Assembly (NCBI GenBank): GCA_001799995.1
Contig: MGUK01000095.1
Location: 1 to 64,000, forward strand
Direction: 5' to 3'
DNA: 64,000 nucleotides
DNA from: Elusimicrobia bacterium GWF2_62_30
GTDB taxonomy: Bacteria > Elusimicrobiota > Elusimicrobia > Elusimicrobiales > UBA9959
Shown: positions 22,586 through 53,518 of the stretch, piece after piece
How the letters are laid out: every line of letters starts with the position of its first letter
Position numbering within the stretch: position 1 is the stretch's first letter
Notes under the pieces: model-generated
Databases searched by the model: none
Told to the model about the DNA's origin: nothing
What the model saw: only the letters and a program-made list of their open reading frames with translations
Translations under genes and position numbers: made by a program

Positions 22586-23626
22586 ATGAAGGCAAACAAA
22601 ATATACAGTCCCGCTGAAAACCTGAAAAGGGCGTTCGCCGCTTTTCTCTTCGCTTCCGGCCTGCTGCTGGCGCCGCTGTCCGCGCTTTCCGCCGCCGGGG
22701 CCCTGGATTCGCTTTCGTCGCTGGCCGCCCCTTACGCCGTAGACGTCCCGGTCGTTTCCACCCCGGCCGTTTCTACCGGCACCGTAGTGACCGGGAAGGC
22801 GCTGAACGCCTATTTCCTGAGCGTGGGCCAGGGAGACGCCGAGTATATAGAACTGCCCAATGGCGGTAATGTTCTCATCGACGCGGGCCCCAATCCCACG
22901 GCGCCGCTCATCGAGTTCCTTACTGAGCACGGCATAACCAAGATCGACCACGTGGTGCTGACCCATCCGCATTCAGACCATTACAGCGGGCTCGGCTATA
23001 TTTTCGACAATATCAGCGTGGCTAATTTCTACGACACCAGGATGGATAACACCGGCTCCGCCAGGATAAAAACACTGCGGGCCAAAGTCGGTGAACTTGG
23101 CATTAACGCCGTATACCCAGCCGCGGGCGACGAATTGAACTGGGACCCGGAAGTAAAAGTAAAGGTGTTAAATAGCTGCTCTGAACCCGGCGAAAGCGGC
23201 TCAGGCCACGTTCTCAACGATTGCTCGATAGTGCTGAAAGTGACCTACCAGAACAGTTCGATACTTTACATGGGCGACGCCGAGACCGATGTGGAGGAGA
23301 AGTTGATCGCCGCATACGGGGATGAACTGAAGGCCGATGTCCTGAAGGTCGGGCATCACGGCAGCGCCACCGCCTCCAGCCCGGCTTTCCTGGCCAAGGT
23401 CCGGCCCTGGCTGGCCTATATCGAGGTGGGCTACCTCAATACTTTCGATTTCCCGGCTCCCTCCACTTCTATCAACCTGGCCGCCATTGGCGCCACGCCG
23501 CGGCTTACCTACATAACGCGCAACGAGGTTTATACTATCCCGGCCGCGCCGCCGGGCCCCGGCGGCACGCCGCCGCTGCCGCCGCTGCCCCCCATTCCGC
23601 CGTCTCCCGTATTGCCGGCACGGTAG
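22586..23626 (+). CDS. Secreted ComEC/Rec2-like metallo-beta-lactamase-fold protein
   Basis: 346 residues. A signal peptide (about 1-38) precedes an MBL domain of the kind found at the C-terminus of ComEC: AYFLSVGQGDAEYIELPNGGNVLIDAGP, then the metal motif THPHSDHYSGLGY, DCSIVLKVTYQNSSILYMGDAE, and LKVGHHGS. Unlike ComEC it has no multi-pass channel part, so it is a free exported hydrolase, probably a nuclease or phosphodiesterase acting outside the cytoplasm. The C-terminus is a Pro/Gly-rich tail (PPLPPLPPIPPSP). The promoter at 22498 carries the CTGGGYC element. Confidence 0.85.
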   Translation: MKANKIYSPAENLKRAFAAFLFASGLLLAPLSALSAAGALDSLSSLAAPYAVDVPVVSTPAVSTGTVVTGKALNAYFLSVGQGDAEYIELPNGGNVLIDAGPNPTAPLIEFLTEHGITKIDHVVLTHPHSDHYSGLGYIFDNISVANFYDTRMDNTGSARIKTLRAKVGELGINAVYPAAGDELNWDPEVKVKVLNSCSEPGESGSGHVLNDCSIVLKVTYQNSSILYMGDAETDVEEKLIAAYGDELKADVLKVGHHGSATASSPAFLAKVRPWLAYIEVGYLNTFDFPAPSTSINLAAIGATPRLTYITRNEVYTIPAAPPGPGGTPPLPPLPPIPPSPVLPAR

Positions 23627-23640
23627 GGTTTTTGCTATAA
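23611..23640 (+). promoter_or_regulatory. Extended -10 promoter upstream of a 200-nt leader
   Basis: TGCTATAAT (TG at 23632, TATAAT 23635-23640) with TTGCCG at 23611-23616 as a possible -35 (18-bp spacer). It overlaps the end of the MBL gene and would start RNA near 23647. Confidence 0.65.
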
Positions 23641-23646
23641 TGGATT

Positions 23647-23847
23647 TACAGCATTGGTCAGTCAGCAACGTAGTTTCCGTATCTTACAAGCTGCGCAGGT
23701 ATCCTTAAACACCTAAGACTACCTCCCGCAGTGATGTCCTTCCCAGATAGTATTCGGAAGGCGCGTTAAGTTCCTCCCACCTACAATCGGAGCTTAACAC
23801 AAAGTATCGGGAATATAATAGAAATTATATTCGGAGGCTTTGTGTTA
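23647..23847 (+). promoter_or_regulatory. Structured 5' leader with a hairpin that masks the SD and start codon
   Basis: The last 53 nt fold as an outer 10-bp stem (TAACACAAAG 23795-23804 with CTTTGTGTTA 23838-23847, which includes the A of ATG) and an inner perfect 9-bp stem (GAATATAAT 23811-23819 with ATTATATTC 23824-23832). The SD GGAGG (23833-23837) lies in the internal loop. Upstream GTTAAG (23765-23770) can instead pair with CTTAAC (23793-23798), competing with the outer stem. TTCCTCCCACC at 23771-23781 is complementary to the SD. Two further stems lie upstream (CTGCG 23691 with CGCAG 23727; CCTTCC 23738 with GGAAGG 23756). It matches no riboswitch class I know. Confidence 0.6.
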
Positions 23848-24440
23848 TGAAAAAGTACATACCTGTTATCTGTTTTGCTATTACCGCTTTGGCCGGTACC
23901 GTTTCCGCGCGTGCGGACGGCGGCGCCCTTGTGGCCGTTCTTTCCATGACGGACTCCGCGGCGCAGTCCCGGGCCGCCGGGCTGCCCGTACCATCCCTGG
24001 AGCGGGTCGGCCAGGCCCAGCTGAGGCTTATCGACATCACCGAGAAGTGCCTGCGCGACGGCGAGGTGGTCTCCGCCTTCCCCGCCATCTACACGCTGGT
24101 CCATAACGAGGAGAACGCGCGTGTTATAAAGGTTTTCAGTTTTGTGGACATGAAAGGGCTGGAGCGCCGGGTGGAGGTTTATTATACCGGCGGCGACTGG
24201 ATGCAGTACGGCCTGGTTTACGTGGCCACCAACGCCGGCGGCGCCAGGGACAGGGCCAGAGCCTACTTCGTGCAGGAGCTCTCCACCACCGACAGGGAAG
24301 AGGGAGCCGTTGAACCCAGGGTGGATCCTTTCGATAACGCCGGGCTCATGAAGTTCCTGGCCGCGGAGTTCCTCGAGGCGTCCGGCGGCGTTAAGGCCGG
24401 GTTCGTCAGCTTAGCGGAGGCCCCGGCTTCCGCCGACTAA
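23847..24440 (+). CDS. Secreted protein of unknown function under leader control
   Basis: 197 residues with a signal peptide (MKKYIPVICFAITALAGTVSARA). The mature part has mixed strands and helices (VGQAQLRLIDITEKCL, RVIKVFSFVDMKGLERRVEVYYTGGDWMQYG) and no recognised domain. The start is fixed by the SD CGGAGG 9 bp upstream, which sits inside the regulatory hairpin. It is the first gene of a likely three-gene unit with the two exported proteins that follow (24- and 12-bp gaps). Confidence 0.75.
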   Translation: MKKYIPVICFAITALAGTVSARADGGALVAVLSMTDSAAQSRAAGLPVPSLERVGQAQLRLIDITEKCLRDGEVVSAFPAIYTLVHNEENARVIKVFSFVDMKGLERRVEVYYTGGDWMQYGLVYVATNAGGARDRARAYFVQELSTTDREEGAVEPRVDPFDNAGLMKFLAAEFLEASGGVKAGFVSLAEAPASAD

Positions 24441-53443: not shown

Positions 53444-53518
53444 GCGCCCGTGGTGAAATGGATATCACAGGAGCCTCCGAAGCTTCTAGTGCAGGTTCGA
53501 TTCCTGCCGGGCGCACCA
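53444..53518 (+). tRNA. tRNA-Arg (anticodon CCG), CCA encoded
   Basis: Full cloverleaf: acceptor GCGCCCG / CGGGCGC, D stem GTGA / TCAC, anticodon stem GGAGC / GCTTC with loop CTCCGAA (anticodon CCG, reads CGG), T arm GCAGG-TTCGATT-CCTGC, discriminator A and genomic CCA at 53516-53518. TATAAT at 53392-53397 is a likely own -10. Confidence 0.95.

Follow-up and report, generated by a model that had tools for sequence, protein, structure and literature searches.

A conserved, riboswitch-like leader RNA before three types of exported-type protein genes in one family of Elusimicrobiota

The leader and its distribution

The window analysed here is a 64,000-nucleotide stretch of contig MGUK01000095.1 from Elusimicrobia bacterium GWF2_62_30, whose 2.9-Mb genome is assembled in 99 contigs. 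On its forward strand, a gene for a ComEC-like protein of metallo-beta-lactamase fold with an exported-type N-terminus (22586..23626; PF00753, 1.6e-17; ComEC_Rec2, 3.4e-27, below the NCBIfam cut-off) is followed by a gene termed type A (23847..24440), which encodes a 197-residue protein of unassigned family, exported-type by inspection of its N-terminus. Upstream of the latter gene lies a leader at about 23648-23849 (+). The promoter seen in the sequence (23612..23641, +) consists of a -35-like TTGCCG (23612-23617) and an extended -10 of the form TG-TATAAT, TGCTATAAT, with its hexamer at 23636-23641, from which we infer a transcription start near 23648. An earlier note, made from the letters of this DNA alone, had described a leader of about 200 nt with an extended -10. 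Both are present, although the conserved RNA element is narrower, running from its first conserved base to the ATG (23674..23849, +), where it matches the covariance model R1 at 200 bits. It comprises a conserved core of ~135 nt, in which helix P0 closes P1/P1a, P2 and P3, followed by a hairpin that contains the Shine-Dalgarno sequence (SD) and the start codon. The fold predicted for the leader, at -59.2 kcal/mol, compares with -44.2 kcal/mol (sd 3.8) in shuffles (z -3.95), none of 200 being as low.

A protein search of 61 genomes finds a type-A gene in 12, the source genome included, all of one genus. The leader precedes 11 of these 12 gene loci, and at the twelfth (L008) the contig ends first. 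The model R1, built from 14 leaders, gives 62 full-length matches in 47 of the 59 genomes of the uncultured Elusimicrobiota family and none in the remaining 281 of 340 phylum genomes; the source genome holds a single copy. A core model built from all 62 leaders, R2, searched at E<=1 in the 340 genomes, returns the same 47 genomes and three outside the family, whose weak matches (best E 0.04, 0.10 and 0.41) are taken as chance rather than as a wider spread of the element. The core pattern of the leader also occurs on 12 named contigs, mostly Elusimicrobia metagenome assemblies and otherwise labelled 'bacterium'. A phage or plasmid origin was considered and rejected, as no match was found among phages or plasmids; one exact pattern match in viral contigs (L133) is not supported by the covariance model.

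Each of the 62 copies stands immediately before a gene, in the sense orientation, the position of a riboswitch-type 5' leader. In 57 of the 62 leaders, an extended -10 precedes the element by no more than 65 nt, against 1/57 and 11/61 in control stretches, with 6 to 53 nt between the -10-like site and the start of the element. The earlier note had tied its reading to a transcription start that does not fall downstream of 23765, and the promoter-like sites in these 57 leaders lie upstream of the whole element. Within each type of downstream gene, leader DNA is 80-83% identical; the corresponding figures are 51-57% over the first 150 bases of the gene itself and 39-59% in the DNA upstream.

Core helices and the start-codon hairpin

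The core was assessed in a structure-blind MAFFT alignment of all 62 leaders (A4), in which 32 pairs were counted, with P0 closing P1, P1a, P2 and P3. Of 1973 cells, 96.5% pair, whereas slid versions of the structure pair in 31-48% of cells, and the covariation score of 0.276 exceeds the 0.042-0.085 obtained for the slid structure. Of the 32 pairs, 20 have double-sided changes, in 126 cells altogether; shuffles give 9.6 pairs and 28.4 cells, with none of 500 as high, although these controls leave relatedness partly in place. A covariation analysis of homologous leaders is what the earlier note had proposed. RNAalifold, run unaided on the same alignment, arrives at 25 pairs, of which 17 have double-sided changes. 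Wobble pairs that are kept across the family (G-U in 49/62 leaders at one P1 pair, U-G in 54/62 at one P3 pair) point to the + strand as the folded strand. By these comparisons, the leader contains a conserved, structured and sensor-like domain backed by compensatory changes, as is expected of a riboswitch.

P1 is a hairpin at 23686..23737 (+), pairing 23686-23695 with 23727-23737, and carries double-sided changes in five of nine pairs. Within it, P1a (23698..23723, +) pairs GGUA (23698-23701) with UACC (23720-23723), three of four pairs showing such changes, and presents an apical loop, UCCnnAAAn(n)CCnAAGAC, that is conserved in A4. P2 (23738..23761, +) joins CCTTCC (23738-23743) to GGAAGG (23756-23761), with double-sided changes in all five counted pairs. 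In P3 (23765..23798, +), GTTAAGTTC (23765-23773) pairs with GAGCTTAAC (23790-23798); 98.9% of cells are paired, five of nine pairs have double-sided changes, and the loop holds a conserved CCNCC (60/62 leaders, loose pattern). All four helices are well supported on this comparative evidence. The pairing of GTTAAG (23765-23770) with CTTAAC (23793-23798), singled out in the earlier note, is helix P3 and is kept in relatives; the two further stems that the note had seen are likewise real, but the element has more parts, namely P0, P1, P1a and P2. A CU-rich segment complementary to the SD does exist at 23771-23781, as claimed, but its pairing is not conserved, only 8 of the 62 leaders having CCTCC in their P3 loop. 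A UUA/UAA extension of P1a suggested by single-sequence folding was dropped, being lost once divergent leaders were added and varying freely in A4. In one leader (L093, 4033-4216, -) the P1a loop carries an extra G+C-rich hairpin of ~35 nt, an insertion that would be expected of a genuine P1a stem.

P0 pairs the 5' strand CCGUA (23677..23681, +) with 23805-23810, leaving U23807 bulged. Its two halves are paired in 96.2% and 95.2% of cells. Double changes are few (2/5 pairs), and support for P0, a helix central to the switch model, is thinner than for the other helices because it is nearly invariant. In L096 a change in P0 is clearly compensated, with only 1/61 strand exchanges on either side equally good. 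In L100 the pairing is kept with another sequence; no other 3' strand fits its 5' strand as well, and 26/61 foreign 5' strands fit its 3' strand. Duplex energies in L093, L097 and L099 do not discriminate between own and exchanged strands.

The SD, GGAGG (23833..23837, +), lies between two stems of a downstream hairpin that reaches into the ATG, as the earlier note had described; the coordinates given here agree with the sequence. The inner AU hairpin (23811..23832, +) is formed by GAATATAAT and ATTATATTC, pairing 23811-23819 with 23824-23832, and the outer stem pairs 23798-23804 with 23838-23844 before running on into the ATG at 23847. The right arm of this start-codon stem, CTTTGTGTT plus the ATG, occupies 23838..23849 (+). 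Its left arm is the strand TTAACACAAAG (23794..23804, +), whose first part doubles as the P3 3' strand. The adjoining TATCGG (23805..23810, +) is the 3' strand of P0 and also faces the SD in the closed hairpin, as seen in alignments A4 and A5 and in constrained folds. Since the 3' strands of P3 and P0 make up the left arm of the SD/AUG hairpin, a complete core and occlusion of the SD are mutually exclusive; P0 and the inner AU hairpin can coexist.

Conservation of this platform was examined in A5, an alignment of 60 leaders from which L098 and L099 were left out for their longer platforms. The SD is conserved, the arms of the AU hairpin vary in length together, and the strand before that hairpin, UUAGCACAAAG, is paired to the nucleotides that precede the AUG at the threshold of -3 kcal/mol or better in 51 of the 60 leaders. 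Loss of this pairing among homologues was the other outcome that the earlier note had named as telling against its reading. The mean energy of the start-codon stem is -6.1 kcal/mol, as against -2.4 kcal/mol for shuffled arms. An expression platform competing with the sensor, as in riboswitches, is thus predicted for these 51 leaders and not in this form for the nine below threshold (L076, L080, L091, L093, L094, L096, L097, L100 and L104). In some of the divergent leaders inspected the SD is masked by the P0 5' strand or other parts of the core, and in others it is largely free, so that a single switching mechanism does not account for every member, and the predicted switch anatomy is that of most members, not all. 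Nearest-neighbour energies favour the closed state by a median of 8.0 kcal/mol (range 3.9-14.0; 57 scorable leaders), a gap that ligand binding could plausibly bridge. Two leaders of one genome (G007), L105 before a type-B gene and L107 before a type-A gene, have an identical AU hairpin with the loop UUCGG, possibly through gene conversion.

Genes behind the leader

The genes behind the 62 copies fall into three types, 16 of type A, 31 of type B and 15 of type C, that encode unrelated exported-type proteins; the type-C count includes one gene cut by a contig end and typed by its N-terminus (L095). The type-A protein has no match in Pfam or NCBIfam, and its predicted model (pLDDT 79.7) has no PDB fold match at E<=0.001. 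Type B shows a weak DUF3108-like match, below cut-off, and its predicted structure comes closest to exported folds of the YmcC-like and lipoprotein-carrier kinds. Type C belongs to the barstars (PF01337, 7.8e-13, one member searched), a family of RNase inhibitors. By inspection, the N-termini of all three types read as signal peptides. Over their N-terminal 66 residues, one C protein and three B proteins match the A-family model (E 8e-9 to 9e-6, in a region of biased composition), making a shared 5' cassette likely.

Copies of the B and C domains without this N-terminus exist in the same genomes, and seven fetched loci with B or C domains lacking it, or related, have no R2 match. Within the family, the full-length B matches, 31 in number, coincide with the 31 leader-bearing B genes, and one full-length B match outside the family (G147) has no R2 match. 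A-type genes are also present in two genomes (G009 and G076) without a visible leader. By genome, the gene-type sets are B in 20, A in 11, BC in nine, AC in three, C in two, and ABC and AB in one each. A and B occur together under the leader in 2 of 47 genomes; so low a count would have a chance probability of 4e-8 among independent genomes, an assumption that does not hold. The leader tree needs eight changes of gene type, well-supported branches requiring at least three for A and for B, and it follows that leaders moved between gene types or that genes were exchanged behind leaders. One RNA element and a similar N-terminus before three unrelated C-terminal domains suggest a control-plus-export cassette passed between genes. 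Many B loci (depending on the cluster, 19 to 26 of the 31) share convergent neighbours at about +900 to +4000 from the element, which from the look of their sequences we take to be YbaB-like and hydrogenase-maturation proteins. These neighbours were considered as a clue to a ligand and set aside, being read as shared ancestry of place.

A candidate translational switch and its alternatives

In its general plan the element resembles translational riboswitches, with a multi-helix core in a 5' leader and a closing helix that competes with an SD/start-codon hairpin; it differs in being confined, as searched, to one Elusimicrobiota family and to three exported protein families. The riboswitch-like layout proposed in the earlier note is borne out to the extent that both competing helices persist, with compensatory changes, in homologous leaders, and the element may be regarded as a riboswitch-like candidate of this group. 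That the leader is a cis-acting translational ON switch of the riboswitch type is, on balance, the probable explanation. In the closed state, the strand TTAACACAAAGTATCGG would extend the AU hairpin and pair across the SD up to the AUG, keeping ribosomes off. In the open state, the core would fold, with P1, P2 and P3 closed by P0, P3 taking CUUAAC and P0 taking UAUCGG from that same strand; the AU hairpin would stay, and the adjacent SD and AUG would be freed for translation of the exported protein. Many unpaired positions of the core are nearly invariant, and for this reason it looks like a sensor. A small molecule or ion that steadies it would be the likeliest trigger, giving the switch its presumed ON direction.

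The same two structures could instead be shifted by a regulatory protein that binds the core. The conserved core and competing helices would fit this arrangement, and a trans-acting protein would explain the common control of three unrelated genes. However, the three downstream proteins share no domain that could serve as a common autoregulator, and the size of the core, its several helices and its many invariant unpaired bases are more often features of ligand-binding RNAs, so that protein control appears unlikely. Little weight is given, likewise, to a constitutive leader, the fold of which would stabilise the mRNA or pace translation or export with no response to a signal. Exported-type N-termini in all three gene types (by inspection) and the variable platform of divergent members are consistent with such a role, but one strand retains two helices that exclude each other, and the SD occlusion predicted in most members would only cost expression if never relieved.

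Melting of the SD hairpin on warming, the RNA thermometer that the earlier note had offered beside a riboswitch, is very improbable. As in known thermometers, which include ROSE and fourU, the SD is hidden with the AUG in an imperfect hairpin with an AU-rich inner stem, and the AUG, taken alone, is predicted to become more exposed on warming (0.05 at 5 C, 0.57 at 42 C). Exposure of the SD itself, by contrast, is predicted by the nearest-neighbour model to stay flat, at 0.42-0.44 from 5 to 42 C and 0.49 at 50 C, and a thermometer would not need the large conserved core of ~135 nt in front. Least credible of all is a leader-peptide attenuator or upstream open reading frame. A core AUG is aligned in 55 of 62 leaders, but it lies inside the conserved P1 region UGAUGUC, and the frame that it opens stops after anything from 2 to 23 codons, with 14 open to the end of the stretch; as a short reading frame is not conserved across leaders, this explanation was rejected.

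The favoured riboswitch-type leader would not belong to a known class, in agreement with the earlier note. Rfam 15 (4227 families) has no match on the element, either in the window at gathering scores or in the leader at E<=10, and 15 further loci searched at E<=0.5 yield nothing on it. The sole match in the window at gathering score is a tRNA gene (53444-53515, +). Literature searches on Elusimicrobia riboswitches, RNA motifs and barstar with riboswitch returned no description of the element, which is, as far as these searches reach, undescribed. Like the orphan riboswitch candidates of a 104-motif set (PMC2864571), it is supported by conservation, covariation and gene context; unlike them, it is not in Rfam 15 and comes from a phylum, the Elusimicrobia, that the main text of that paper does not mention. 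Cobalamin-riboswitch-like matches below gathering occur near L098 and L099; the one at L098 (4302-4438, +) is AdoCbl riboswitch-like, scores 43.1 bits (gathering 50) and lies on the strand opposite to the new element.

Because the element is found in one bacterial family only, before proteins with no known metabolic role, it offers no direct clue to a ligand. Several pointers to a nucleic-acid ligand exist, namely the ComEC-like homologue upstream in 13 of 16 type-A loci, the 2'-dG-II riboswitches (RF03165) at A loci or ComEC-like genes in G076, G067 and G068, and the barstar of type C. The 2'-dG-II class is abundant in these bacteria, occurring in 53 of the 59 family genomes with up to nine copies per genome, and it stands before relatives of the ComEC-like neighbour of type A; it is, however, a 71-position purine aptamer, whose model the new leader does not match. 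One paper (PMC8872408) gives ComEC and endonuclease I, among others, as predicted products of the genes downstream of 2'-dG-II riboswitches. In the present genomes, 2'-dG-II riboswitches (L134-L145) precede exported-type proteins, a ComEC-like protein and, by the look of the sequence, radical-SAM-like proteins. One lies just before a ComEC-like hydrolase in G067; in G068 another is found upstream of the hydrolase, likewise ComEC-like, that belongs to the A locus. In G076 (L127, G076:C32:46500-49500), a 2'-dG-II riboswitch at local positions 586-656 is followed by a single frame from 685 that joins the hydrolase to the A domain, and the new leader is absent there. A crude pattern scan finds no 2'-dG-II aptamer in 13 of 14 A loci and none in the window.

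Given this company of 2'-dG-II riboswitches with ComEC-like and A genes, a nucleic-acid-derived ligand is a reasonable first test and no more. The fuller proposal, that the leader is a new riboswitch class sensing a nucleic-acid breakdown product (a nucleoside, nucleotide or base) and running an extracellular nucleic-acid programme together with 2'-dG-II, is speculative and rather doubtful. Should the leader prove to be a riboswitch, it would be a new class from a phylum in which RNA has been little studied, and its ligand would reveal what these uncultured bacteria sense when exporting three unexplained proteins. Switching itself is directly testable, the RNA being short, the competing strands known and mutations with opposite predicted effects readily named. 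As a minor observation on the 2'-dG-II class, genome G000 has two RF03165 matches, the one listed lying on another contig.
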